51,198 nucleotides of DNA, from the IMG/VR virus record IMGVR_UViG_3300025276_000048, positions 1 to 51,198 of that record; one strand, given 5' to 3'. The position numbers were made by a program, and so were the translations under genes. The notes beneath the pieces were generated by a model, which did no database searches, was not told where the DNA came from, and saw only the letters and a program-made list of their open reading frames with translations. Positions 15,167 to 49,570 of this stretch are shown here, one piece after another (position 1 is the first letter of the stretch; each line of letters begins with the position of its first letter). This DNA comes from a virus.

Positions 15167-16249
15167 TTATCTAAATTGGTAATTAATTCCTGCTCGTATA
15201 CTGAATATGTTCTTATCCCAGTATCTCATATATTCTGATTCTGTAAATACACCCCAGTTACTACCTATTTTCCATCCTAAAATTAAACCGCCAGAGTGAT
15301 CAAACCATTGCTTACCGTCAACGTAATTTTGATAAGAGAATTCTTCTTTACCGCCTATGTGTTGATGATAAGGCAACACGTTTAACCAGGAGTGTATCCA
15401 AAAGTTTTCCGCATAATGATAGTAGTCAACACCAAATATAGCGGATACAGAAGATAGAAACCCTACACTATCTATACTCATTCTATTGAACTCGTTTACA
15501 ATGCCTGGATATATATACCTACGAAAGTCTTCATCAGTATCAGCAACCTTATCCCCGCTAGGGTCGTTCCAGAACCAATCAAAGTTGTCTACCTCATCGT
15601 CATTATCGTAATCAATTCCGTAATACACATCTTCATAGCCCATTTTACGCACTAAGTCCCACCATGGGTTGTTGTCTAAGAAATCAGATATAGGGTTATA
15701 TCCGTATGGTTTGTGTAAGCGTCCTGCAATACCAGCAGAGAAGTCTAGCTCACCTATATGCAGTCTTAGTCTTGAATCTACTTGAGAGTAGTCTAAACGA
15801 GCCAAACCTTGATGACGGTATTCTCCTTTAAACATAAAGTTTTTACCTAGGTATCTAAGAAAGTATCTTTGGTTATTATACTGTCTACCTTGTTGTCTAG
15901 CTAAGTCATATTGAGCTACATACTCAAATCCTTTTACAGCACCTACAGTGGCAGATAAAGAGCTTGTAGACTCACGCTGACCATCGTAGAATCTGTTCTG
16001 TCTGTTCTCGTATTTATATCTAGCTACCTTACGAATACCTATTGTAGCTGTGTAGTCAAAGTTGTATTCCTCTGTGTAGTTAAACAGCTCCCCGCCTTGA
16101 GTGGTGTACCAAACCTCTTCTGCATACATTGGGTTAGAAGCAAAGCCGCTAGTGTATACTGTTGAGTATTTAAAGAAATCTTTTATTGCGTTTTGACCAA
16201 ACAATGGTTGACACAATATAAATAGTGTTACGAATATTAACTTCTTCAT
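15167..16249 (-). CDS. Phage-encoded outer-membrane beta-barrel protein, 360 aa
   Basis: An N-terminal signal peptide (MKKLIFVTLFILCQPLFGQN, cleavage near residue 18) precedes a protein dominated by alternating aromatic strands such as YDYTATIGIRKVARYKYE, YFLRYLGKNFMFKGEYRHQG and WGVFTESEYMRYW. It ends in INYQFR, a typical C-terminal outer-membrane strand. There is no lipobox and no TonB plug. Similar proteins occur in marine phage genomes that I recognise. It might alter the host surface, for example receptor masking against superinfection, or assist lysis. It directly follows the secreted thioredoxin-like gene. Confidence 0.75.
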   Translation of the reverse strand: MKKLIFVTLFILCQPLFGQNAIKDFFKYSTVYTSGFASNPMYAEEVWYTTQGGELFNYTEEYNFDYTATIGIRKVARYKYENRQNRFYDGQRESTSSLSATVGAVKGFEYVAQYDLARQQGRQYNNQRYFLRYLGKNFMFKGEYRHQGLARLDYSQVDSRLRLHIGELDFSAGIAGRLHKPYGYNPISDFLDNNPWWDLVRKMGYEDVYYGIDYDNDDEVDNFDWFWNDPSGDKVADTDEDFRRYIYPGIVNEFNRMSIDSVGFLSSVSAIFGVDYYHYAENFWIHSWLNVLPYHQHIGGKEEFSYQNYVDGKQWFDHSGGLILGWKIGSNWGVFTESEYMRYWDKNIFSIRAGINYQFR

Positions 16250-16603
16250 TTAGAATTGATTTGCGCCGGTTATTTTATCTACTTGTTTTTGTATCTCACG
16301 ATAGTCTACATGACTTAACGATAAATTAATACCCGCTTCCCACCTAAAAATTTCTTTACCGTTATTATATAATATCACGGTAGGCACTGATCTTATACGC
16401 TCGTCTTGCTTTAATGAAGCATTGCCATCAATAGATGCTCTGAATACTTTAGCATCTTTAATTTTAATAACATCCACATAATTGTTTGCGGCGTTAAAGC
16501 TTGCGTTATAATGTACTACTACTACACCCTTTTTGCTAATTTTATTAGAAGCAAAAGAGAATAGCGTAAACGCAATTAATAAAAGGGTTATTTTCTTTAT
16601 CAT
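16250..16603 (-). CDS. Exported thioredoxin-like protein without CxxC, 117 aa
   Basis: Residues 1-18 are a signal peptide (MIKKITLLLIAFTLFSFA). The rest fits a thioredoxin fold: VVVVHYNASFN where the active-site strand and loop should be, then VFRASID, IRSVPTVILYNNGKEIFRW with the conserved cis-Pro at residue 74. The CxxC is replaced by NASFN, so it cannot do dithiol exchange. A binding or chaperone role in the periplasm is more likely. It lies one base from the outer-membrane barrel gene, suggesting that the two function together. Confidence 0.7.
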   Translation of the reverse strand: MIKKITLLLIAFTLFSFASNKISKKGVVVVHYNASFNAANNYVDVIKIKDAKVFRASIDGNASLKQDERIRSVPTVILYNNGKEIFRWEAGINLSLSHVDYREIQKQVDKITGANQF

Positions 16604-16604
16604 G

Positions 16605-16880
16605 TTATTTCATTTCAAATAGTCTTTCTTCTATTTTATCAAGTTGCTTTTTAATTTCACCCACATCATTTTGTGTGTTCATTATTGTCTCGCGAATCAA
16701 CTGATCTTTAAGGTCATATTCCATTCTACCAACTTCTGCCGGTGGCAATAGCTTAGCCTCTTCTATACCCGCTTGTAAATCAAAATATCCTAGCGAAGCT
16801 ACGCCTACACCAGCTATTATAACACCTATTGTTTTTAGAGATAAGCCTACTACTGTGTTTTCTGAAATTTCTTTTGCCAT
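16605..16880 (-). CDS. Membrane-anchored coiled-coil protein, holin/spanin candidate, 91 aa
   Basis: One membrane helix at about residues 14-32 (KTIGVIIAGVGVASLGYFDL) is followed by a linker and a charged coiled coil (DVGEIKKQLDKIEERLFEMK). It lies one base after the M15 peptidase gene in the same transcript. The anchor-plus-coiled-coil shape suits a spanin-like or holin accessory protein. A 2-span holin with better family resemblance is encoded at 49175, so the lysis role here is inferred from position. Confidence 0.5.
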   Translation of the reverse strand: MAKEISENTVVGLSLKTIGVIIAGVGVASLGYFDLQAGIEEAKLLPPAEVGRMEYDLKDQLIRETIMNTQNDVGEIKKQLDKIEERLFEMK

Positions 16881-16881
16881 G

Positions 16882-17346
16882 TTATTTAAAGTGCTTGTAC
16901 TTTGTTTTACCTTCTTTTTTGTAAGCTACTAATCTTTCACCTCGGTTTTTGCGGTCGTCAACATATGAAACATGCACCCAGTCAGGTTCGTCCGCATTGC
17001 CAAATTCCCAAATAAGCTGATCAAAGCTAGTGTGCTCTGAAATATAATTAAATAGCTCTTTGTTAGTTATTCCGCCAAATGCTTGAGCATCTAAGTCAAG
17101 AGCCTGGCCCTTAGAATGCTGAGATGTTTTACTCCCACCAATGCGCTCATTCAAAGCTTCACTACGATACCCAGACGTTACGCGAATAGGTTTGTTGAAA
17201 TAATCACGTGTAGGTTGGAAAATGTTTAATGAAATTGCCTTTAAATTTTCTAAATGTTCTAATGTAGGCTCATTACTAATGCCGCATCTCTTTGCTGTAG
17301 TAGATTTAATTACCTCAGCAACGCTTAAGTTATTTGATAATTTCAT
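16882..17346 (-). CDS. Peptidase M15A endolysin, 154 aa
   Basis: The zinc peptidase motif is complete: SGYRSEALNERIGGSKTSQH, with His-77, then GQALDLDA with Asp-84, and later WVHVSY with His-125 as the third ligand. This is the D-Ala-D-Ala carboxypeptidase/L-Ala-D-Glu endopeptidase family used as endolysins by many phages of Gram-negative hosts. There is no signal peptide, so release needs a holin. Length is near that of minimal M15A domains. The gene follows the giant virion protein and precedes a membrane protein gene. Confidence 0.85.
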   Translation of the reverse strand: MKLSNNLSVAEVIKSTTAKRCGISNEPTLEHLENLKAISLNIFQPTRDYFNKPIRVTSGYRSEALNERIGGSKTSQHSKGQALDLDAQAFGGITNKELFNYISEHTSFDQLIWEFGNADEPDWVHVSYVDDRKNRGERLVAYKKEGKTKYKHFK

Positions 17347-17355
17347 TATTTATTT

Positions 17356-20300
17356 TTATTTAGGTTTACGTTCAGGGTATTTTTTATCATATTCTTCAAG
17401 CTTTTTAGCCAGTTCTTTTTCTTTTTTGCTTTTACGCGTTTTTTTAGATTTTGCTTTACTCTCCTCTTTACGCTGCGTTTTAGCCTCTATTTTAATAAGA
17501 TCGTTCTCTTCATTCTTGGCACCCACATCCCATGTTTTCCAGCCAGCTGCTAATGCTATACGTTGCCATTCTGTGTTTCTAGAATCTAATGCTTCTGAAT
17601 AACCGTTAATAAGATCTACTACTCTATCCATGGGAATGTTGGTAGTACCTGAGACTAAACTACCAAGAATAGAATATGCGGGGCTTAAATTTACACGGCC
17701 ATCTTGCATAATCTCAAAACCTCTTGCTTTAAGTATATCCCTGTTAAATGCTTCTCCAGCTAAAGCAGAGTTTATTTTTCTAAGTTTTGATCCTATAGGT
17801 GGAGAAATACTAAGTACTTGTAATACAACCGCTCCACGGTCAGCCATAAATCCTTTATCTTTTTGTATAAAATATTCTGTAATAGTATTTTTAATGGTTG
17901 CTAATACGGCTCCTCTTACGCCACTACCTTTAAGAATAGAATCTGTCATACTATTAATAATACGAAGAATTCTTTTATCGTTCTTGCGCTCAAGCTTTTC
18001 TAATTCTTTTGCGGTCATTTCAGACTCTTCTTCGTCGTCAAATCCAGGTATAACGGCAAACAATGCACTCTGTAATGCGGAGAATATAAAGTTCTGCACC
18101 GCACCGTAATAAATAATTTTAGATATATGTGTTTTAGGGTCTCCTCGTCTGTTTGCAAGATCCTGCATTGATTTTTTCATTAAGCGGGTGTATTGCATTG
18201 GCGTATTCTGAAATGCTAATACTAATCTACCTAGCACGCTACGTTGCTCTTGAGAAACTAAATACGGATCAGATGATTGTTGTGCTTCATCTGCAGTTTT
18301 GCTAAAGTCTTCAAACGCTTGCTTTTCTGCTGCTTTTTGCTCCATACCTTGTTTAAGATATGTGTTAACTCTATTTCTGTACATTGATGATCCACCCATT
18401 GCAATAGCAAAGCTATCCGCAATTTGAGTAGGGGTAAAACCAATTTTTAATAAATAAGCAATTACAGCACCTGCTTTATTTTTAGCGCCTTCTGCTTGAT
18501 TAGCAATTTCTGCCTGGTTAACATCCGTTTGCAATCCTGAACGGCGTTGTTTTAACTTGTCGGAGTTAAATATCATTGCAAAATCCGACCAATATTGTGG
18601 CTGGTTTGCAAATGCTGCCGCTGCTTTAAGCGGGTTGTTATCAGACCAATTAATAAAGTTAGTAGCAGATAGAGTTTGCAATATTGCGGAGCGAACGTTT
18701 AAGAACATTATAGCGCCGGTAGAGTTGTTTACCCAATTTAACCAAGCATTAACTTGTCTGCTCTTAGATCCAGCAGTACGGTTTGTACCGTTAGTCATTG
18801 AATATAAAGAATCCTCAATAGCGCTTCTGTGGTTTGTTCCATAAACAGCTTCAATCTTATTCAAATTTTCAGGACTAAATATAACTTCAGAATTTTCTAT
18901 AAATTCTTGCAAGTATTTTTTTCTACCTACTTTTTCAGTCATTCCGTTAAGATCTGAAACTAAAGTACGGGAAAGCCAATGCTCACCAGGCTCGGCCCAT
19001 GTGTCTTGTCTAGATATGAGTTGCATCGCGTTGCCTAATTCAATAAGTTGTGGCATCGCGTTAATCGCATTAATTAAAAACCTAATGTCAGCTTTATCCA
19101 TACCAGGTATCTCTATACCTTGCTGAGTCCACATGTACACCCTTAATGCTTGATCATAAGTATAATCGCTATTATCGATTTTCTTACCTAGCATTTTAAA
19201 ATACTGCTTATTAGTTTTTGCTAAAGCATTGTATTCACGTCGCACTTGCTGTTTAATTGCTTCAATCATTGCAATACCTCTAATGTACGGCGTAATTAAA
19301 TTGTCTTCAATAAACTTTTGGTCAGCTTCACCTTGTTTTCCTTTGCCAGCAAATGTATATGAAGTTAGCCCTCTAAAATCTTCAGCAGACGCAGGAACAA
19401 ACAAACGATACTTGCCTTTCTTTTCGCCTTGCATACGGGCTTGTGCTACTGAATATAATTTATCGGCCGCAACTCCTTTATTGCGCTCAATCATTTTATT
19501 TAAGCCCTCGCTTAAGCCTTTGCTAAACTTAATGCCTGATGCTTCTAAACCTGTGTTTACTTTATTTACAAATGCTTCAGGCAAAGCCTCACCGTAAGAA
19601 AGGTTATCAGTATTTATTTCATAAAAACGACCGGCATAGTCTTCTTTATATTGCTTAGCGCTTTCTTGTACGCTATCCCAAGTTTTAGTTACTATAAAGT
19701 CTGCTAACGATCTTTCAGCCCGCGCACGGTTTCTTTCTACTGCAATATCTTTGCTAGTGTTTACAAATATCATTTGTATTTCAAACCCTGCATCTTCTAA
19801 AGCTTTCATCTTTTTAGTTGTAGCTTTATATGATGCGCCAGTGCCATCAACTACCATGCTTTCTCGTCCAGCTGTATTATTGGCTAAATCTTCTTCCGCA
19901 GCTTTTCTAGCTTTCCAGCCTAGCTTAGCTCTTAATGATCTTTCTTCTTTGTTATAAGTTTTTTCATCACTCGCTAGTCCAGCATCTTTTATATATTTTT
20001 CTAAATAAGGGTCTTGGTTAACTAATCTATAGCCTTTGTCAATTAAACCTAATCCTTCTAGTGTGCTAGATTTACCAGAGCCTGGTCCGCCTACCATAAA
20101 TACAGCGGTTGGTTTAGATATAGAGAACTTTACGGATGGCTGCAACCATTTTTCAAAAGATTGTACAGCTTTAAAGTTTATATCTATTTTTTCTGTGTAT
20201 GCTTCTGTTTCTTTTAGACTTTCAAAATAATCTGTTAAAGTGATTAAATTTCCTTTTTCATTAACTGCTGCAAAATAAGTATTAGCGCGCGCGGCTTCTC

Positions 20301-23300
20301 CGTATAGTCTTAATCTTTCTATATTGGCAGGATTAGTGGGCGATAGTATTTTATCAATAACAGGATTTGCCGTTAATTGATCGGTAGACATTAATATATT
20401 TTTTTCATATGCCTTGTCTATGGCATCAATAGTTTCCTTGCCTAACTCATTATTAACAAGGGCAAGTTTAGGGTTGCCAGCTATTTCTAATAGCTCAAAC
20501 ATAAATTGTACGTTAGGAAACATATGTTCTATGTATTGCCCTGAATTATAATCTATGTTGCCATCAATAATTGTTAATTGCCCTAGTGGTCCAAATCCAT
20601 CGTTACGCGTACCATTATCACGTTGTAAAAATCTAGCAAAGTCCATTAAAGTCATCTCGCCTTTTTGAACTGCTAAAATAAATTCACCGGCAATTCTACT
20701 AGACAATATTTTGTTGGCTAAGTTTTGGGCTTGAATCTTCTCAACCATGCCGGAAGACTGCAAAGTATTATTAATATCACCGTTTTTTTGTAACTCGAAC
20801 AAGTCTTTTGCACTTACTTCTTTTGTAGTGTATTTAGTTACATTAGAAAGAATTTCGGCATTTATTTTGTTAGCGGCAACAATAGCTTTTGACTTAATAG
20901 CGCCTTTAAACGCTCCAATACCAAATGCTCTTAATTCATTAATGCTAATTCTGCTTTGTACAATACCTACACTTTCAAGGTATTTTTTTAAAGTTTTAAG
21001 CTCTCCTTTACTTTTTAAACGGCGAACGGTCATAAAACCTTCTAGCTCTTCTTGAACTTCTTTAGAAGCTTGCGGAATTAGGTTACTAAATCTCGCATCT
21101 ATTTCTAGCTTATAATCGGCAACCGTACTATTAAGTATTTCCCCAATATGCCAAAAAACCTTTTCAAAGTTAACGTCATTAAGGTCTACGCCTAGCTCTT
21201 TTGCTTCTAACTTAAATTGTTCAATTATACCATTATTAAAATTTTCATCGTCTAAAGTATAATCATCTGGGAAAACTTTATCAGATCGTAATACTTTATT
21301 TAAAACAATGTCTAATGCCGCCAGGTTTTGAGCGGATTGCAATTCGGTTTGCGTGAAACCCTTAGAGTACTTAATATTTCCTCTTTCAAAATCAAGTTTA
21401 AGCTTCGCTATGTAATTGTCAGCAATTTCAGTACCTATTCTTTCTTGATTAGCTTCAAAAGCTTGTCGGATTTGGCTATCAGGATTTTGCATTTCCTGAT
21501 TAATAATTTCTATAGCTAATTCTTCTCCAATAGCCTTAGCGAGAGATTCTTTTTTACCGCGTAAAGGATTACCTTTTTCATCAAGAATAAAAGACAAAAA
21601 GGTTTTGTCATCTATTTTTGCTGAAGCATTTGGCAATCTACGTACTAATTCAGCTCCAGATGTTCTACCTGCTTTATCTGTATCTACAGATTCTCTATCA
21701 ATTTTTTTACCTTTCCAATCACTAGTAAATACACCATCTACTTGTTTTTGTATTGCAGCTGGAAAAGCAGACATTAAATAAGTAGTGGTCATATTCTCAA
21801 GGATAGCTTTTTTGTTATCCGTTAAAAATCTTCTAAGCACCCCGTCTTTTTTACCACCCATTGCTTTTTTCAAGTCAATGTCTACTTGCTTACCTAAAGC
21901 GAGACGCAATTCATTTACTAATGGAGTAACGGTAGTGTTTTTAGAAACAGGAGCATCAATACGACTTTTAAGAGTACCTACTATTCTAGGTATTTTACCA
22001 AGTATTTCTTGTATTAATTCTGGTTCTGCAATTCTACTATTTAAAAGAGGTCTGTATTCAGGCTTTTCAGCTTCCGTGCGCTCTTCTATTTGTTCTATAG
22101 TAGTAACATCAGCAGCCTCACCTTTAAGGTCCTCTATGTCGCTCTGATTAAAGTCTTCAACAATATCGTTTTTACCTTCGCCAGAAGCTTTAAGCATATC
22201 TTTAATACGGAAACTAATACGCCCATTTATATAACCGTATAATGTACCTCGACCATCAAACTTATTTATGTCTCCGTTAGAATACAGTCTATAAACAATG
22301 TCACTATTAGCCTCATCCATGTCAAACTGTAAGCCTTTAATAGAAAGCTTTGCTAACTGTGCTTGAATCATTCCTGGAAGAACTCTCGCAATAAGCGGTG
22401 AGTTAGGATCAAAGAAGTCCATATTTGAACTTACTTTATCCAAAACTGCTTTTGCTGCTTCTGCAGATTGTGTACGGCTTTGTTTTGTTTCTTTGTTTTC
22501 AGGTTCTTTTCCTGCAGCTCTTATAAAAGGTTTTGAAGATTTTACTTTGCCACCAAAATGAGCGGCTTTATTATAATCTAAAACAAATTGATAAACAGCG
22601 GCATCGTCGGATAACTTAAATTTTCCCGGTAATATTTTACTAAGAAGTAATTTAACTTGTTCCAATGTATTAGCGTTAGGCATATAGCCGTCAGCTAATA
22701 AATCAGATAAAGCGGTTAACGCTTCTTCTTGATAATATTTATTCTTTTTAGACTCGCCGGTGCTTTCATCGGTCTCAACGTAGTTTTTGTCAAGGCGATC
22801 TTTAACTCTAGCAAATAAGTCAGGCTGCTTCTTTTCTAAATAATTTAAAAGGTCTTGCCCTGCTTCGTTACCTGTTTTTGACTGGATGCCTAATTCTGCT
22901 TCGTCATGCAACACCTCATGTGCAAATACACCAATACGACCATTCTTAATAGCGTTTGGCATGTGTACTAGATTGTACCCTCCAAAATTAAGTGCTTCTG
23001 TTCTGCCGCTAGCTAGCATTTTTTTAAGTTCACTAATGTTTTCGTAACCTAATTCTTTTGCTCTAGCAATTAAATTCTCTGTTGCACCTTCACCGTCGAA
23101 AGATTCAGGGGGGTTAATTTTTTTATCTTTATTATTTTGAATATAACGCAGTACATTATCTCGGCCTTTTTCTATAAGCTCTCTGTATTTATTTTCAAAA
23201 TAATCTTTTCTAACTTTCTGTTTAACAGATTCGTTTGTTACTTCTAACCCCTCCTTTTCAAGTTCAGCTTTAGCTTTTTCGTTTAAAGACTGTATTGTGC

Positions 23301-25863
23301 TAGCACTAAGTTTTCCAAATTCAGAATTCATACGCAACAAGCTTTCTGTTTGCATGCGTACGTTATACGTAGCATAGCCGCTGGTAGCATCAAAGTTAAC
23401 AGTACGAGCCCCTGCTTCTTTTAAATTTTCTGCTATAGAAATTTCGTCTTCTAAAATTTCATTACGCTTTTGAGATTCTTTTTCGTATTTTGCTCTATAC
23501 TCTACCTCAAAAGCTTTTAGCTGAGAAGCGGAAAAGTTTGGATTGCTTGTAATTTCAGACCACTCGCTTTCAATTTTACGCAAATTTCTATTGCGTTCGC
23601 CTATTTCAAATAGTTGCTCTGCAGTATATTTTGTACCTAATCCTTCTAAAATTTCATCCTTAATGCTTCCTGACTCCAGCGTAAGCTCTTCTACCATTTT
23701 ACGGACTTCCGGAGTTAAGTTGCCAAAGCGCCCTAATGAACCTAGGTCGATATTATTTATAGGCATATTAGTTAACTCACTAATACGCTGCATAATTTCT
23801 TTTAGTCTTTTGCTTTCTTTACGGGTAGCTATTTCGCCGACAATAGATTCTTTTACTAGTCTTGGTGTATTTATAGAAACCATACTAACACCCATCAATC
23901 CACCTTGAGCAAAGCTTTCTAAACCGCCTTCAAAAACGTTTTTATCTTCACCCAATATGTAAATGTCTCCGATGTTTCCAGTTACAGTGGTAGCAAATTC
24001 TGAACCACCTTCCCGTTTAAGACCTTCGCCCCATGTTTTGCCAATAGCATACATGCCTTGCTTAACGCTTGTAGGCTTAAGAGCCCTTGCGGTTTTGCCT
24101 AGGTTTTTTAATATCTGCATTGTACCGACTCTTTCAAAAATAACTTCGGCCATTCCGTACAAAGCGGAAACGCTAAATTTTTGTAAGTCAGATATATTCA
24201 AAGTTTTAGCGTCCTCCACCATTTCCGCTTCGATGGCCGCCCGTTCTAGCTCGTCAATATCTGGGTTTTCTTCTAAATATTTTGCGTTTTTAACTACACG
24301 CATTGCGGCATCTTCTTCAGCGACCGCCATTTCACCAAGTTTACCACCTGCACCAGTCATAAAAAATAGTGGTAATGCAGCAGGGCCAGTTGCAGCAAGG
24401 CCTAAAGATGGTAGTAAGTTTGTTCCAGCTCCAGCAATCCAACGCCCAGCGTCTTTCATACTACCAACTTCGTCAATAGTTAAATTTTCTTGGAATCCTT
24501 CAGCTTCGCGCATCGTTTCTCGTTTGAGCGCTACTGCCTTGTCATACTCTCCTTCATATGAAACGCCCATTAGTTCGTCCATCTCGGCTCCAAGTAACCA
24601 AACGTCAGCGGCCATTCCTTTCGCAACACTGCGCATTTGGCGCAAGCGATTGTAATCTTTCTTTAAAACGCCCATTGCTAGCCCTATGTATTCGGCCTCC
24701 CCAATATCGTTTTTTAAAGAATTTGCACTATCTAAAATAGCATTTTCAATTTCTCTTACTTCTTTAAATGCAGCGGTAGCAGCTTCAAAATTATCTAATG
24801 ATGGATTATTATTAAAATTATCAATAATGACAGTAGCCTCTGCAGCGGTATTTTTACCTAAAATTCTTAAGTCTGTAAGACCTTTTATACTATTATTTAA
24901 GACCACTGCTTTATTGTCAACTAAAGCATCTAAAGATTGTCTTTCGCTTATGCTTAAATCGCCACCAAACTCTTTACTTTTAGTATCTGCAAATGCCTGC
25001 TTACGTTCTAAATTAAATGCTTGTATATCTTCTTCTGTAGGGTCTGCTATTAAATCGCCTTTCCCCCAAGCTATATATGCATCGTAATCTTCTTGATTTG
25101 AAAAGTCAGACACAGTAGCATATGTCATTCTTTCATCTGCAAAGCCTCGCTCTAAATTACGTGTGCGCGCCTCAGCAGCTTTATTGTATTTAGCCTGAAC
25201 TTCTTCAAATTTATTTAAGCGCGCTTTTTTGTAATCTTTTGCTAACTCGTCTTCTGTTTTTTCTTCAGCAGTAGTAGCTTCTTTAAATTCGTTCCATTTA
25301 CCGCCAAGCTCAATTTCCGCCTTAGCTAAATAAGACGTATCCCCTAATTGGTTTACAAGTTGATTAATAGCATTTGCGCTTTCTTTTAGCTGTTCTTCAG
25401 ATAGATCCGATCCAACATTAAAAGACGAAAGCGTATCGGAAACAGTCTTATAAGCAAGTTCAGGGAACGATCCTATTTTTTGGAAAAAGTTTTTTTCGTC
25501 TTCTTTAGACTTTCGCTTTTCAATATTAATAGCATTAAAGCTATTAGTACTTGTACTTTCTTTTGCAATTAAACCATATTGGCTAAGTCCTGCATTTAGT
25601 CTGGCTACAACATCACCTTCATCAGATTTTAAATCGTCTGTAGTAATTTGAAAGTCAATCTCTGGTGACCCCAAAGAAATATCGCCCGAACTGGATTCCC
25701 CAGCGGACGTTTCTATATTCTGACTCGCTGGTGGGTCTATTTCCATCGAATCGTTTTGCTTTCCCTCATTGCCCCTTGATTTTGCTAATAGCTCTTCAAC
25801 GGTTATACCGTTCATATCTGCCATTTTTTGCAATTTTTCGGGACTAAGTTTGCTAAGATCCAT
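17356..25863 (-). CDS. Giant multi-domain ejected virion protein, 2835 aa
   Basis: Recognisable parts in order: acidic Ser-rich N-terminus (1-100); a Gly/Ala-rich hydrophobic stretch about 476-515 (possible membrane contact); HEVLH zinc-protease motif at 982-986; a sigma region 2-like segment about 1180-1226; a zeta-toxin-type kinase fold about 1918-2095 with P-loop GGPGSGKSS (1925-1933) and VVDGTGAS (2004-2011); a C-terminal region about 2190-2610 shared with giant proteins of marine podoviruses (FLNVRSAILQT, AFQNTPMQYTR, IIYYGAVQNF); a Lys-rich tail. The position after the internal proteins suggests packaging in the head and injection at infection. I see no RNA polymerase DxDGD motif. Confidence 0.8.
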   Translation of the reverse strand: MDLSKLSPEKLQKMADMNGITVEELLAKSRGNEGKQNDSMEIDPPASQNIETSAGESSSGDISLGSPEIDFQITTDDLKSDEGDVVARLNAGLSQYGLIAKESTSTNSFNAINIEKRKSKEDEKNFFQKIGSFPELAYKTVSDTLSSFNVGSDLSEEQLKESANAINQLVNQLGDTSYLAKAEIELGGKWNEFKEATTAEEKTEDELAKDYKKARLNKFEEVQAKYNKAAEARTRNLERGFADERMTYATVSDFSNQEDYDAYIAWGKGDLIADPTEEDIQAFNLERKQAFADTKSKEFGGDLSISERQSLDALVDNKAVVLNNSIKGLTDLRILGKNTAAEATVIIDNFNNNPSLDNFEAATAAFKEVREIENAILDSANSLKNDIGEAEYIGLAMGVLKKDYNRLRQMRSVAKGMAADVWLLGAEMDELMGVSYEGEYDKAVALKRETMREAEGFQENLTIDEVGSMKDAGRWIAGAGTNLLPSLGLAATGPAALPLFFMTGAGGKLGEMAVAEEDAAMRVVKNAKYLEENPDIDELERAAIEAEMVEDAKTLNISDLQKFSVSALYGMAEVIFERVGTMQILKNLGKTARALKPTSVKQGMYAIGKTWGEGLKREGGSEFATTVTGNIGDIYILGEDKNVFEGGLESFAQGGLMGVSMVSINTPRLVKESIVGEIATRKESKRLKEIMQRISELTNMPINNIDLGSLGRFGNLTPEVRKMVEELTLESGSIKDEILEGLGTKYTAEQLFEIGERNRNLRKIESEWSEITSNPNFSASQLKAFEVEYRAKYEKESQKRNEILEDEISIAENLKEAGARTVNFDATSGYATYNVRMQTESLLRMNSEFGKLSASTIQSLNEKAKAELEKEGLEVTNESVKQKVRKDYFENKYRELIEKGRDNVLRYIQNNKDKKINPPESFDGEGATENLIARAKELGYENISELKKMLASGRTEALNFGGYNLVHMPNAIKNGRIGVFAHEVLHDEAELGIQSKTGNEAGQDLLNYLEKKQPDLFARVKDRLDKNYVETDESTGESKKNKYYQEEALTALSDLLADGYMPNANTLEQVKLLLSKILPGKFKLSDDAAVYQFVLDYNKAAHFGGKVKSSKPFIRAAGKEPENKETKQSRTQSAEAAKAVLDKVSSNMDFFDPNSPLIARVLPGMIQAQLAKLSIKGLQFDMDEANSDIVYRLYSNGDINKFDGRGTLYGYINGRISFRIKDMLKASGEGKNDIVEDFNQSDIEDLKGEAADVTTIEQIEERTEAEKPEYRPLLNSRIAEPELIQEILGKIPRIVGTLKSRIDAPVSKNTTVTPLVNELRLALGKQVDIDLKKAMGGKKDGVLRRFLTDNKKAILENMTTTYLMSAFPAAIQKQVDGVFTSDWKGKKIDRESVDTDKAGRTSGAELVRRLPNASAKIDDKTFLSFILDEKGNPLRGKKESLAKAIGEELAIEIINQEMQNPDSQIRQAFEANQERIGTEIADNYIAKLKLDFERGNIKYSKGFTQTELQSAQNLAALDIVLNKVLRSDKVFPDDYTLDDENFNNGIIEQFKLEAKELGVDLNDVNFEKVFWHIGEILNSTVADYKLEIDARFSNLIPQASKEVQEELEGFMTVRRLKSKGELKTLKKYLESVGIVQSRISINELRAFGIGAFKGAIKSKAIVAANKINAEILSNVTKYTTKEVSAKDLFELQKNGDINNTLQSSGMVEKIQAQNLANKILSSRIAGEFILAVQKGEMTLMDFARFLQRDNGTRNDGFGPLGQLTIIDGNIDYNSGQYIEHMFPNVQFMFELLEIAGNPKLALVNNELGKETIDAIDKAYEKNILMSTDQLTANPVIDKILSPTNPANIERLRLYGEAARANTYFAAVNEKGNLITLTDYFESLKETEAYTEKIDINFKAVQSFEKWLQPSVKFSISKPTAVFMVGGPGSGKSSTLEGLGLIDKGYRLVNQDPYLEKYIKDAGLASDEKTYNKEERSLRAKLGWKARKAAEEDLANNTAGRESMVVDGTGASYKATTKKMKALEDAGFEIQMIFVNTSKDIAVERNRARAERSLADFIVTKTWDSVQESAKQYKEDYAGRFYEINTDNLSYGEALPEAFVNKVNTGLEASGIKFSKGLSEGLNKMIERNKGVAADKLYSVAQARMQGEKKGKYRLFVPASAEDFRGLTSYTFAGKGKQGEADQKFIEDNLITPYIRGIAMIEAIKQQVRREYNALAKTNKQYFKMLGKKIDNSDYTYDQALRVYMWTQQGIEIPGMDKADIRFLINAINAMPQLIELGNAMQLISRQDTWAEPGEHWLSRTLVSDLNGMTEKVGRKKYLQEFIENSEVIFSPENLNKIEAVYGTNHRSAIEDSLYSMTNGTNRTAGSKSRQVNAWLNWVNNSTGAIMFLNVRSAILQTLSATNFINWSDNNPLKAAAAFANQPQYWSDFAMIFNSDKLKQRRSGLQTDVNQAEIANQAEGAKNKAGAVIAYLLKIGFTPTQIADSFAIAMGGSSMYRNRVNTYLKQGMEQKAAEKQAFEDFSKTADEAQQSSDPYLVSQEQRSVLGRLVLAFQNTPMQYTRLMKKSMQDLANRRGDPKTHISKIIYYGAVQNFIFSALQSALFAVIPGFDDEEESEMTAKELEKLERKNDKRILRIINSMTDSILKGSGVRGAVLATIKNTITEYFIQKDKGFMADRGAVVLQVLSISPPIGSKLRKINSALAGEAFNRDILKARGFEIMQDGRVNLSPAYSILGSLVSGTTNIPMDRVVDLINGYSEALDSRNTEWQRIALAAGWKTWDVGAKNEENDLIKIEAKTQRKEESKAKSKKTRKSKKEKELAKKLEEYDKKYPERKPK

Positions 25864-39639: not shown

Positions 39640-41853
39640 TTATTTTATTATTTTCGATAATTCTCCTGATTGCTCATACTTAGCTATACTGAGATTTAAT
39701 TTTGTTTTTTGCAATGCTGCTTGCGGTCTATACATATCTTTGTGGCAAGCCATAACAGCTAACCCGGAACTTATAGCCGCATCATATTTTGTTCTGTTGT
39801 TTATATCAAACTTAGACCAGTCATTTAATGTTGCGTTAAAATACATGTTACCATATTCTCCATCGGAGTTTAAACCAACATGCTTATCAATGTACATCTC
39901 AATCGCAGCGGCGTGCGCTTGCTTAATGTCTTCACTCGAGTTAGGTATACCACCAATTTCTCTTTCAGTTACAGAAAGTTTATTCCATAATCTGTCAGGT
40001 CGGTTCATTGAATAACCTCTATATCCTCTACGTTTAAAGTAGTAAAGCAATCTAGGCTTGTTATTCTCAGCAAGTATTGGCATCCCATAGAAGACACATG
40101 CCATAAGCACGTCTTCAAAAAATATCTCTGCAGTTTGAGGCCTAGCAATGTATTCTAAAAAGAATGTACTAGGCGGTGCATCTTCCATGCTGAATTTAGT
40201 CAGTCCATGAAGAGCACCTTTGGAACCTTTGCCGTCTGTCGTTCCTGAAATATCGTAACTATCACATCCGAATGCACCCATATGCTCATTGCCTGGGTGT
40301 TTAATACCATTCTTTGTGGTTTGTCTGTTCTGTATGCTAGCGTTAGGTATCCAAGATATCTTAAAACGCCCTTGTGGACTAGGTATAAACTCTACTTTTG
40401 TGTCTTTTATACCTAGTGACCATTGAAAATTACCCTGAGTTATAACATTAGTATTACGCAAGTCCTCGTTATAATCAATCTGTTCGTAGATTTTAGCGAG
40501 ATTAAATATACTACTTTTTGTTTCATCCCTGAACGCATGCTCAGTTGTACGAGGAAATTGCCTGTAATATTCGTTCAAAGCATCCTGGTCTTGTTTAAGA
40601 CCGTCAACTTCATTATTCCAGTAATCTATAACCCCAACATCAATAACGTCGCCAAACGGGCTTAAAACCTCTTCAGACGGCGTTGTGAATACCGGTTGCC
40701 CGTGTTCATCTATAAAACCTTCGTAATTCCATTCCATTGGTATAAACAAGCTGTATAAACCAGACTTTGTTTGACCATTGCTATTTCTTTTTGTTACGTC
40801 GGAATCGTGATATAACTTTTTAAAGTTTTCACCACCTTTGTCTAATGCATTCGATGTAGAACCCATTAAACACTTTCCAATAATTCGGCTACCTAAACGT
40901 AAACAAGTTTTAGTTACCCTCCAGTTGTTTAATATATTGTCTGGTCTTTCCCACTTACCACTCTCATCATGCACTAAAAGCTTTAGCTTTTCACCATCAT
41001 AGGAGTTATCACCAGTATTCTTCCAGTCAATTGTTGTATCAAGACCTTCAAGCTCTTCGCGTACTTCGTTTGCTTGTATACCTTTCCTAGTTAACTTAGA
41101 AGCAGGAACCCTATATGCCAGTTCAGTTTTCGGTCTATCCATACCATCTTGTATGGGTTTGAAGAAAAACGGGTAGTTAATAGAAATTGGTACAACCTTG
41201 TCGGTAAACATTTTTTTAGCATCACTACCTGATTTAGATAGGATACCGAATCTAGCATCTCCTGATATAGTGGCTTGGTTAACTGTTTCACCTGATGCCA
41301 TGAATGAGAATCCACTCCGTCTGTTCTTAAGATAGCACATTCCGTAACATCTTGTATCTGACTTACAGGCTTCCCAGAATAAAAAGAAGAGTCTATTAGC
41401 TTCTCTGTAGTCTGGATTTCCAACGTCGATCTTACTCCACTGCAAGTACATGTAGTGAGTCCCAGAAATATAAGTAGGAATGCCTTTGTTATAAAACCAA
41501 AAACCTTCCTCTCTTCTTTTGAATTCCTCATCTATGTATCCTTCCCATTTTAATTGAAACTCTTCTGGGTATGTTTTCCAATCAAATATAGTTTTAACAT
41601 TCTTGAGTTCTTTAGGGTACTCTTCAATAACCCACTTGTCAGCACCTTTCTTAAGGTTTTTAGGCGCAGGTGGTAAAGCGAATTGAAACCCTTGAACTTC
41701 TATGATCTCACCAATCTGACCTGTCTTACTGATAACTACAATGTCATACTCTTTATTATAACCATACTTCCACTTCTTAGTCTTGTTCAGTCTGTGTACG
41801 GTTGTAAGCTTTATAGGCTGTACGGATTTGACTAAACTTTGTTCATACATCAT
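39640..41853 (-). CDS. Terminase large subunit, crAss-like, 737 aa
   Basis: This is the ATP-driven packaging motor. The ATPase domain has a Walker A-like YLKNRRSGFSFMAS (174-187), Walker B LLVHDE (292-297) and the coupling region GSTSNALDKGGENFKKLY. The nuclease domain begins near GAFGCDSYDISGT with Asp-531. Segments such as TYISGTHYMYLQWSKIDVG, FGILSKSGSDAKKMFTDKVV and FFKPIQDGMDRPKTELAYR closely match crAss-like terminases as I know them. It overlaps the small-terminase candidate by 4 bases and is the best single marker of the phage's relationship. Confidence 0.93.
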   Translation of the reverse strand: MMYEQSLVKSVQPIKLTTVHRLNKTKKWKYGYNKEYDIVVISKTGQIGEIIEVQGFQFALPPAPKNLKKGADKWVIEEYPKELKNVKTIFDWKTYPEEFQLKWEGYIDEEFKRREEGFWFYNKGIPTYISGTHYMYLQWSKIDVGNPDYREANRLFFLFWEACKSDTRCYGMCYLKNRRSGFSFMASGETVNQATISGDARFGILSKSGSDAKKMFTDKVVPISINYPFFFKPIQDGMDRPKTELAYRVPASKLTRKGIQANEVREELEGLDTTIDWKNTGDNSYDGEKLKLLVHDESGKWERPDNILNNWRVTKTCLRLGSRIIGKCLMGSTSNALDKGGENFKKLYHDSDVTKRNSNGQTKSGLYSLFIPMEWNYEGFIDEHGQPVFTTPSEEVLSPFGDVIDVGVIDYWNNEVDGLKQDQDALNEYYRQFPRTTEHAFRDETKSSIFNLAKIYEQIDYNEDLRNTNVITQGNFQWSLGIKDTKVEFIPSPQGRFKISWIPNASIQNRQTTKNGIKHPGNEHMGAFGCDSYDISGTTDGKGSKGALHGLTKFSMEDAPPSTFFLEYIARPQTAEIFFEDVLMACVFYGMPILAENNKPRLLYYFKRRGYRGYSMNRPDRLWNKLSVTEREIGGIPNSSEDIKQAHAAAIEMYIDKHVGLNSDGEYGNMYFNATLNDWSKFDINNRTKYDAAISSGLAVMACHKDMYRPQAALQKTKLNLSIAKYEQSGELSKIIK

Positions 41854-46954: not shown

Positions 46955-47208
46955 TCTACAATAACTACATCGCCGATGTTAATGACATGGAACAACTCAT
47001 CATTCCACTCAATACCGTGACCGGCGTGTTTATCATAACGAACAATAGTTCCAGGGTCTATACCTTCAACTCTGTCACCCGCGCTTATTACCTCAGCTCT
47101 TAAGTATCTAACTTCTTTGTTCTGAGTTTCCGTAAGCTCAAGGCCGGCAACTGTTTTCGGCGCCTCCTTGATCTTCTTAATTACTATATAGTGGTTAATT
47201 GCTTTCAT
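46951..47208 (-). CDS. Co-chaperonin GroES homologue, 85 aa
   Basis: A GroES barrel is recognisable: MKAINHYIVIKKIKEAPKTV, a mobile-loop equivalent with AGLELTETQ, YLRAEVISAGDRVEGIDPGT, then the roof and final strands (VRYDKHAGHGIEW, FHVINIGDVVIVE). It is about 10 residues shorter than bacterial GroES. It overlaps groEL by 14 bases, with the chaperonin first, the reverse of the usual bacterial groES-groEL order. It should cap the phage chaperonin, but could also work with host GroEL. Confidence 0.8.
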   Translation of the reverse strand: MKAINHYIVIKKIKEAPKTVAGLELTETQNKEVRYLRAEVISAGDRVEGIDPGTIVRYDKHAGHGIEWNDELFHVINIGDVVIVE

Positions 47209-48796
47209 GACGGATGTTTGAGATTATACAATCAGCAGATGATATGGTTAAGGCTACACTAATTGCATTCTTTAATGCAGCTTTAGTAACCAACACTGGA
47301 TCAATAATACCAGCGCCAATCATATCTTTATAACATCCACAAGTTGCGTCAACACCTTGCCCCTCCCACTCTCTGTCATTAAGCTCTGGCTCTGATTCCG
47401 TAAACTCCTTAGGGTTCATTACATCACCAAATCCAGCGTTATCTAATATAACATTATATGGCTCTTGAATAGCCTTAAGCAAAATGTCATAACCAACTCC
47501 TTTGCTTTCAATTACTTGCGCCGCATTAAGCAATGCAATTCCGCCACCAGGTACAATACCTTCTTTAAGTGCGGCTTGTGTTGCATGTATAGCATCTTCA
47601 ACGCGATCTCTTTTTTCTTTTAATTCTACTTGAGAATCTGCACCAACGTGAATAATACCAACCTTACCGGTTAGCATAGATAAACGTTGTTCTAGTTTGT
47701 TCTTTAAGAATCCGTTTGTTTCATTAGCGATCTTCTTACGAACATCTTCAATACGTGCTTTAAGTTCTAATGGATCAACATCCACTTGCATCACGGTGTT
47801 CTTATTATTTGTTACTGATTTAACTATTTCACCTAAAACAACAGGGTCGATTAAATCTAAATCGTCACCGAGTTCTTCGTTAATAATAGTTGCTCCTGTG
47901 AGCATTGCTAAATCTTGTAATGTCTCCTGCCTAGTAGGTCCGAATCCAGGTAGATCAATAATGTTGATCTTAATGTTTCCTTTGACTTTATTAGCTATAA
48001 GCGTTTGATACGGCTGCTGCTCAACATCAGCAATGATTAACAGCGCTCGTTTAGTCTTCACAGCGTGTTCTAGGACACTTTGTATCTTTCTTATATTAGG
48101 TATAGGCGAGCTTACAATAAGCACATAAGGGTTGTCTAAAACAGCTGTCCCTTTATCCTGGTCAGTTACTAGGTGCGGTGATTTTAATGGTGATTCAAAT
48201 TGTGTGCCCTCAACAAAGTCTACGTAAGTTTCGTTTGTTTCGGATTCTCCCATTAATACGACGCCATCTTTGCCAACTTTTTCGAAAGCTTGGCCAATTT
48301 TTTGTCCAAGGTCTTTGTCATTGTTACAGCTAATGTATGCAACTTGGTTAAGCATTTCACCCTCAACCGGTATACTGGTATCATCAAGATATACCATAAC
48401 TTCCGTAGCGCATTTTTCAATGCCATCTTTAATAGTTCTAGCCTGCTCTTCATTGGTTGAATTATTTATTTCTTTTAGTATGGCTTGAGCGAGGACGGTA
48501 GAAGTTGTTGTACCGTCCCCGGCTTCATGCACTGTGTTCCTAGCAGCTTCCTTAATCAAGGTTGCTCCTATATTTTCGACCGGATCCAGTAAGACTACGG
48601 ATTCTGCTACCGTTACACCGTCTTTTGTAATCACCGGTCGGCCAAGCGCGTCTTCGTATATAACACATTTTCCAGAAGCACCTAAGGTGGACTTCACTGC
48701 GCTGGCTAACTTATCGACGCCGGCCATTATTTTTTGATTGGCTGTATCGCCAAACGTAAGATCTTTTACGATCTCGCTAGGATTATTGAATTGCAT
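47195..48796 (-). CDS. Chaperonin GroEL homologue, 533 aa
   Basis: Equatorial ATP-binding motifs are intact: KSTLGASGK, ITKDGVTVA, GDGTTTS (93-99), VEDAIHATQAALKEGIVPGG (with the catalytic Asp), and GIIDPVLVTKAALKNA. Length is close to bacterial GroEL, but the flexible GGM-type C-terminal tail is missing (ends IISNIRHESN). In the apical domain SPLKSPHLVTD replaces the typical SPYF region that binds substrate and GroES, so substrate choice may differ. It lies in the late operon with its own GroES, which suggests folding of capsid or tail proteins. Confidence 0.93.
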   Translation of the reverse strand: MQFNNPSEIVKDLTFGDTANQKIMAGVDKLASAVKSTLGASGKCVIYEDALGRPVITKDGVTVAESVVLLDPVENIGATLIKEAARNTVHEAGDGTTTSTVLAQAILKEINNSTNEEQARTIKDGIEKCATEVMVYLDDTSIPVEGEMLNQVAYISCNNDKDLGQKIGQAFEKVGKDGVVLMGESETNETYVDFVEGTQFESPLKSPHLVTDQDKGTAVLDNPYVLIVSSPIPNIRKIQSVLEHAVKTKRALLIIADVEQQPYQTLIANKVKGNIKINIIDLPGFGPTRQETLQDLAMLTGATIINEELGDDLDLIDPVVLGEIVKSVTNNKNTVMQVDVDPLELKARIEDVRKKIANETNGFLKNKLEQRLSMLTGKVGIIHVGADSQVELKEKRDRVEDAIHATQAALKEGIVPGGGIALLNAAQVIESKGVGYDILLKAIQEPYNVILDNAGFGDVMNPKEFTESEPELNDREWEGQGVDATCGCYKDMIGAGIIDPVLVTKAALKNAISVALTISSADCIISNIRHESN

Positions 48797-49174: not shown

Positions 49175-49570
49175 CTATGCTTTTGTGCTCTTGTTTTTCT
49201 CAAAAGTACGGCCACCAAAGTAAGCACCTATTACTGTTATAAGGACAAGTTCTAACAAACCTACCCAATTGTCTTTAACTTCAAAGTCGATGAAGCCAGC
49301 ATCAATTATTACTAATAGCACAGTTGATACAACTAAGAATATAAGAGTCATTGGTCTTACATTCTTTGATAGCCAAGAATCGGAAGCCATATCTACGGCC
49401 CATCTTGAACTTACCTCTTTTTGCATCTTTGCTTCTGCATCTAGCATTAATTTCTGTATTTCATTTTTAACCTTACCTATTTCTTCTTTCGAAGTGGTTA
49501 AGTTATCAAGCACATTCCCTACATCTTTAATAAGGCTGCCTGATAGTAAGCTTAAAATTTTACTCTTCAC
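49175..49570 (-). CDS. Holin, GTA-type 2-3 TM family, 131 aa
   Basis: A soluble helical N-terminus (DVGNVLDNLTTSKEEIGKVK) is followed by WLSKNVRPMTLIFLVVSTVL (first membrane helix, about 72-92) and NWVGLLELVLITVIGAYFGG (second, about 102-120), ending in RTFEKNK. The VRP entry, the W-x-G-x-x-E motif and the RTFEK ending match the holin family first described in gene transfer agents. It should release the M15 endolysin by forming membrane lesions, although the endolysin gene is 32 kb away. It overlaps the upstream gene by 11 bases. Confidence 0.7.
   Translation of the reverse strand: MKSKILSLLSGSLIKDVGNVLDNLTTSKEEIGKVKNEIQKLMLDAEAKMQKEVSSRWAVDMASDSWLSKNVRPMTLIFLVVSTVLLVIIDAGFIDFEVKDNWVGLLELVLITVIGAYFGGRTFEKNKSTKA

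Follow-up and report, generated by a model that had tools for sequence, protein, structure and literature searches.

The window analysed here is the whole 51,198-base virus record IMGVR_UViG_3300025276_000048. An earlier note, made from its letters alone, had drawn attention to two minus-strand genes, one for an outer-membrane barrel and one for an exported thioredoxin-like protein, and both open reading frames lie where it had placed them (Table 1). It had put them one base apart. They are indeed adjacent, but they abut, the ATG of the barrel gene coming directly after the TAA of the thioredoxin-like gene. Gaps of 1 bp separate the transmembrane (TM) gene from the thioredoxin-like gene and the endolysin gene from the TM gene, the endolysin gene lying upstream of the latter. 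The "pair" of the note does consist of conserved neighbours, but the unit is really a trio. The note had missed the conserved TM gene upstream, and also the endolysin gene next to it.

Table 1. Trio, lysis genes and associated features of the window
Feature	Position	Strand	Description
Barrel gene	15167..16249	-	360 aa; predicted 12-stranded outer-membrane beta-barrel
Thioredoxin-like gene	16250..16603	-	117 aa; predicted to be exported; redox-dead
TM gene	16605..16880	-	91 aa; one TM segment on the N-terminal side, then a polar helical tail
M15 peptidase endolysin gene	16882..17346	-	154 aa; Pfam PF08291, 1e-19; phrog_894 endolysin, 3.5e-36
Holin gene, apart from the trio	49175..49570	-	131 aa; two hydrophobic segments; phrog_3427, 1.1e-28
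Barrel signal peptide	16196..16249	-	residues 1-18; putative cleavage before Q19
Barrel insert	15458..15712	-	residues 180-264; helical, Asp-rich, conserved; between strands 7 and 8
N37-A-A-N40 of the thioredoxin-like protein	16484..16495	-	occupies the place of the thioredoxin CxxC in the alignment
Terminator-like stem-loop	14546..14573	-	11 pairs; 3' of two small genes located after the barrel gene

The strand block that contains the trio also encodes a terminase, a virion structural protein, a tail fibre protein, a GroEL-like protein and the holin. Since the trio shares its strand with terminase, structural and holin genes, the late operon proposed in the note is a fair inference. Terminator-like sites are only weakly enriched in the window (3 found, 2.1 expected in shuffles). 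The GroEL-like chaperonin of the late block (47195-48796, minus strand, 533 aa) matches phrog_5725 with an E-value of 2e-133. Upstream of the lysis genes, a minus-strand gene at 17356-25863 encodes a giant protein of 2835 aa; a P-loop-like GPGSGKSS motif, spotted by eye, suggests several domains, among them a kinase-like one.

The barrel sequence ends in AGINYQFR, in agreement with the INYQFR terminus described before. Both proteins also have the expected signal-peptide-like N-termini, and a strong hydrophobic leader was called in every one of the 51 barrels left after dereplication at 92% identity and in all 95 thioredoxin-like representatives. These calls are heuristic, as signal peptides, lipoboxes and TM segments were assigned throughout by hydropathy and pattern scripts rather than by a trained predictor. 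The barrel leader is of the SPI type, and the first residue after the putative cleavage site is Q in 48 of 51 members. According to the accessible text of PMC5837995, Q right after signal-peptide cleavage is the rule in Bacteroidetes, and Q19 of the window barrel fits this rule. The hosts are therefore probably Bacteroidota, and the phages carrying the trio probably infect marine members of this phylum.

A barrel model built from 9 sequences was poor (pLDDT 45.2) and was discarded. The AlphaFold2 model from the 51-sequence alignment (pLDDT 82.9, pTM 0.74) has 12 main strands and a helical insert at about residues 180-264. Its Foldseek matches in the PDB include the outer-membrane barrels NanC (9e-5) and FapF (2.8e-4), and VIA aligned it to TamA (Z 11.1, 181 aligned, rmsd 3.5), CymA (Z 10.8, 199 aligned, rmsd 5.9) and the 12-stranded enzymes OMPLA (Z 9.2, 160 aligned, rmsd 5.0) and LpxR (Z 9.3, 170 aligned, rmsd 5.9). 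All of these matches are generic, and no one barrel family was singled out by either program. The closest BFVD entry, A0A516LKJ4, has the same fold (Foldseek E 5.6e-31, TM 0.78/0.82) at 27% identity; below it, only generic barrels follow. By sequence, the barrel gave chance matches only in the PDB, and its 51 members gave weak, scattered matches only in PHROGs and Pfam. With a signal peptide and a predicted even-stranded antiparallel barrel, the protein is predicted to reside in the outer membrane. The insert, whose conservation (0.65) equals the mean of the whole protein, may form extracellular loop 4 or a plug and is possibly calcium-binding. The gene is under purifying selection, with dN/dS of 0.048 between the window and L002 (where dS is high) and 0.023 between L006 and L008. 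Because of this selection and of the conservation across many virus records, the two genes cannot be dismissed as chance reading frames.

For its neighbour, the thioredoxin fold named in the note has support at the level of the family: 33 of 63 members match Pfam Thioredoxin (PF00085, best 1.1e-8) and a PDB thioredoxin is found at 2.9e-9, while the window protein alone stays below the Pfam cut-off (18.8 vs 23.5 bits). The loss of CxxC was also read correctly, but its place was slightly off. WCGPC aligns to FNAAN and not to NASFN, so that the cysteine columns read N..N. In the alignment-guided count of 95 members, which is the one to use in preference to columns set by eye, CxxC is absent from every protein and NxxN is present in 75. 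The cis-Pro column is kept in 179 of 179 family matches (motif columns set by eye). The fold and the cis-proline region are therefore common to these proteins and the thioredoxin family, but the window-type proteins are exported and lack the catalytic motif. With CxxC absent and mostly replaced by NxxN, a redox enzyme is very unlikely; a binding role would be the natural inference from the sequence. A tblastn search of phage records returned two ssRNA phage matches only, both judged to be chance.

The TM family (n = 86) is characterized by a single TM segment, with a hydropathy of at least 1.6 in 80 members and a second segment in none. The segment lies near residue 17; beyond it, a median of 63 residues form a helical-looking, highly conserved tail, which in the window copy carries V-I-L-I-L at 3/4 spacing. 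A heptad-like moment reaches the 5% level in 34 of 86 tails (window copy: 229 of 2000 shuffles). The N-terminal flank is the more positive one in 40 of 86 members and equal in 25, which does not settle the topology. When 58 members were compared with PHROGs, nine matched phrog_20984, a family with no named function (best 3.5e-13). One matched a holin family (1.5e-4), one a virion family (0.001), and six more families were hit by one or two members each; in Pfam, eight families were matched by one member apiece. The idea that the TM protein is itself a holin is not supported, given this single holin match among 58 and the separate phrog_3427 holin of the window. Several loci contain a second, divergent TM paralogue near the barrel (L156:8463-8774, L128:2338-2658, L077:10205-10528, L080-L082 and L150:12090-12419); the second copy in L156 is the best match of phrog_20984.

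Initial scans of viral contigs yielded 3 and 6 close relatives. Alignment-based scans of viral contigs retrieved 90 barrel relatives (80 kept), 29 thioredoxin-like relatives and at least 527 TM relatives (80 kept). Bacterial and archaeal genome contigs contained one barrel locus, on a 3.6-kb Bacteroidetes MAG contig that has the gene order of the window (endolysin, TM, thioredoxin-like, barrel). The barrel and TM profiles each occur in 1 of 395 Bacteroidota genomes, on this same contig, and a host origin of the trio was on these counts rejected as far as tested. In the scanned sets, the trio families are thus confined to virus records and one Bacteroidota MAG contig. A tblastn search with the barrel found no match in 50,697 phage records, nor did the window TM protein, two divergent TM proteins or one divergent barrel match any of the named phage records.

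Conserved adjacency in related genomes, which the note had proposed as a check, was observed. Of the 51 barrel loci, 48 contain all three genes at distances of no more than 1.5 kb, and in the three exceptions (L051, L059 and L063) the contig begins too near. The order is mostly TM-thioredoxin-barrel and elsewhere barrel-TM-thioredoxin. Distances between loci are correlated among the families (Spearman 0.70 for barrel/thioredoxin, 0.48 for TM/thioredoxin and 0.33 for barrel/TM; 0 of 500 permutations reach each value), a correlation that co-inheritance alone can explain.

We could also observe signs of exchange. The barrels of L003 and L004 are about 79% identical to that of the window, while the neighbours outside the trio are unlike those of the window, except, further off in L004, a helicase-region gene (35%) and an endolysin (48%). 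Such similar barrels amid non-matching flanks show that the set moves from one kind of phage to another. Mosaicism is seen in the window, too, whose thioredoxin-like protein is nearest to that of L005 (80%) and whose barrel is nearest to that of L002 (85%), although the thioredoxin-like protein of L002 is only 49% identical to that of the window. This argues against strict allele-specific pairing. The differing nearest relatives point to recombination between the two genes within 15167-16603. In another record, of 82,425 bases, two trio sets (L012 and L020) occur together with two u-spanin-like genes; this doubling is either genuine or a product of the assembly, in which two genomes or a repeat were joined.

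The surroundings of the trio were compared among 82 of 94 representatives, namely those with both flanks of at least 1.5 kb or with an adjacent endolysin, a choice that introduces a slight bias toward adjacency. Endolysins were searched as M15 and amidase types only, and many records are fragments. By script, the module lies directly beside a same-strand endolysin in 26 of 30 barrel-less loci vs 24 of 52 barrel loci; 28 of the 52 have no M15 or amidase gene directly adjacent. Where any endolysin is present in the fetched stretch, the TM-thioredoxin pair adjoins it in 36 of 41 loci, compared with 7.8 expected for a random gene in these loci. Several barrel-less cassettes read TM-thioredoxin-endolysin-holin, with phrog_3427 holins in L134 and L161. 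The slot after the thioredoxin-like gene can hold the barrel, a gene with a lipobox and a C-terminal TM segment (the u-spanin architecture), a small lipoprotein gene or an endolysin gene; in barrel-less loci it is mostly an M15 or amidase endolysin and in others a lipobox gene. In L012 and L118, a holin-like gene, the TM, thioredoxin-like and barrel genes and a u-spanin-like gene form one run (the holin-like call rests on hydrophobic segments seen by eye, and the L012 copy has no PHROG match). L101, without a barrel, and L121, with one, form a natural presence/absence pair with the same layout downstream: a u-spanin-like gene, then opposite-strand genes for proteins of 71, 169 and 321 aa.

The note had offered three guesses for the two proteins, a superinfection block, a surface remodelling pair or a lysis aid. 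Because the pair lies beside the endolysin far more often than expected, the lysis aid is favoured and a receptor block appears less likely; the interpretation as a whole is partly supported. We conclude that the TM and thioredoxin-like proteins are the core of a lysis-associated module and that the barrel is its optional outer-membrane member.

In the search for lipoproteins, six of seven known ones were recovered as positive controls (L170 was missed). The window has a holin and an endolysin, and its only lipoprotein spanin candidates are other-frame or opposite-strand ORFs over the terminase gene. One such ORF of 146 aa with a lipobox-like start (41091-41531, minus strand), inside the terminase gene in another frame, is probably due to chance. 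Among six other barrel-bearing records of 53-66 kb, five contain no credible lipoprotein in the eighteen pieces scanned, up to 6 kb of three records lying outside them. Candidates came from 4 of the 18 pieces; three were judged spurious, and the fourth is a 188-aa protein in the record of L144. None of the trio proteins has a lipobox, as the lipoprotein partner of a two-component spanin would, and none of the three in the window combines a lipobox with a C-terminal TM segment in the manner of a unimolecular spanin. A u-spanin-like gene was found in 11 of 40 barrel-bearing and 4 of 31 barrel-less records, so the presence of the barrel does not track the absence of u-spanins. In the barrel-less L164 and L168 (58-63 kb), the thioredoxin-like protein is the sole exported protein found by the heuristic, and the TM-thioredoxin pair can thus exist without an outer-membrane partner from the phage. 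The u-spanin-like genes of barrel-bearing records and the partnerless L164 and L168 led us to reject a strict replacement of spanins by the trio.

The module probably has some role in lysis. The best single reading, which we put forward tentatively, places its action at the outer-membrane step of this process. The TM protein would sit in the inner membrane and extend its helix into the periplasm, where the dead thioredoxin, with its kept cis-proline peptide-binding region, would serve as adaptor; the barrel would provide the outer-membrane anchor. Once holin and endolysin have cleared the murein barrier, the linked chain may pull on or destabilise the outer membrane as spanins do, with no lipoprotein involved. 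In barrel-less phages, the far end of the pair could be a u-spanin, a small lipoprotein or a host outer-membrane protein. The fuller proposal, that an inner-membrane helix, a redox-dead NxxN adaptor and a beta-barrel replace spanins in a lipoprotein-free rupture route of Bacteroidota phages, is somewhat doubtful. Alternatively, the TM and thioredoxin-like proteins might regulate holin or endolysin like an antiholin, the barrel, in loci that have one, serving as a sensor of outer-membrane state or of a superinfecting phage. T4 RI-T is a precedent for such control of lysis timing. In many loci the pair is nearest the endolysin and holin rather than the barrel, it occurs without any detected outer-membrane partner, and the separate holin of the window frees the TM protein for regulation. 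However, nothing indicates that the pair binds holin or endolysin, the lone holin match in PHROGs is of little help, and the missing lipoprotein spanin of the window would be left unexplained; we consider this explanation unlikely.

A barrel that occupies or alters the host receptor, with the thioredoxin-like protein as its chaperone, would stop superinfection or the loss of progeny on fragments of lysed cells. The modelled outer-membrane location agrees with this, as does the optional presence of the barrel in otherwise similar cassettes (L101 vs L121), and exclusion proteins like T5 Llp are described in the accessible part of PMC9586334 as also stopping adsorption to lysed-cell fragments. 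The same text presents exclusion proteins as typically early, however, whereas the barrel belongs to a strand block with terminase, structural, endolysin and holin genes. Its putative extracellular insert is of average conservation rather than hypervariable, and the pair in barrel-less cassettes would remain unaccounted for, making a receptor block quite unlikely. An enzymatic barrel of the phospholipase or LpxR kind, which would weaken the outer-membrane lipid layer, is very unlikely: OMPLA and LpxR are among the fold matches of the model, but they rank level with or below many non-enzymes such as TamA and CymA, and the likeness is at the fold level only. The least probable of these explanations is a virion component or an unrelated, porin-like change in surface permeability; the structural genes of the strand block would fit it, but signal-peptide-like leaders in all dereplicated members and the repeated siting by lysis genes speak against it.

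For the standing question of how the outer membrane is opened by phages that lack recognisable spanins, the trio is a specific, widely distributed and testable candidate. Kongari 2018 (PMC6139136), in the portion accessible, found no spanins in 91 of the 677 genomes it covers, lists phages of this kind and puts forward the idea that the o-spanin role could fall to an OMP; the trio would be a concrete candidate for this proposal. The accessible text of a 2025 survey (PMC12596118) assigns exclusively unimolecular spanins to Bacteroidetes phages, and that of PMC8776804 mentions u-spanins annotated in some flavophages. In the literature outside subscription papers, we found no paper describing a TM-thioredoxin-barrel trio in phage lysis. 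Our analysis also gives a likely process to the TM-thioredoxin pair, which PHROGs and Pfam leave unnamed or label thioredoxin and whose TM relatives are so numerous in viral contigs.

The earlier statement on the rarity of phage proteins exported to the outer membrane holds only in part: several viral BFVD entries bear outer-membrane names, and T5 Llp, according to the accessible text of PMC9586334, is a phage lipoprotein documented to silence a receptor. Like the barrel, Llp is an envelope protein encoded by a phage, but it is an early-expressed periplasmic lipoprotein, whereas the window protein is a barrel with an SPI-type leader encoded beside lysis genes. Unimolecular spanins (T1 gp11) are alternative occupants of the slot after the thioredoxin-like gene in L101, L104 and L098; the window trio has neither their lipobox nor their C-terminal TM segment, and both systems co-occur in the 11 barrel-bearing records mentioned above. 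No sequence match was found between the trio and the two-component spanins (Rz/Rz1). In both systems, neighbouring genes of the lysis cassette encode a helical protein with one TM segment and a partner in the outer membrane, but this partner is a barrel in the trio and a lipoprotein in the spanins, and the trio adds a periplasmic thioredoxin-like protein.
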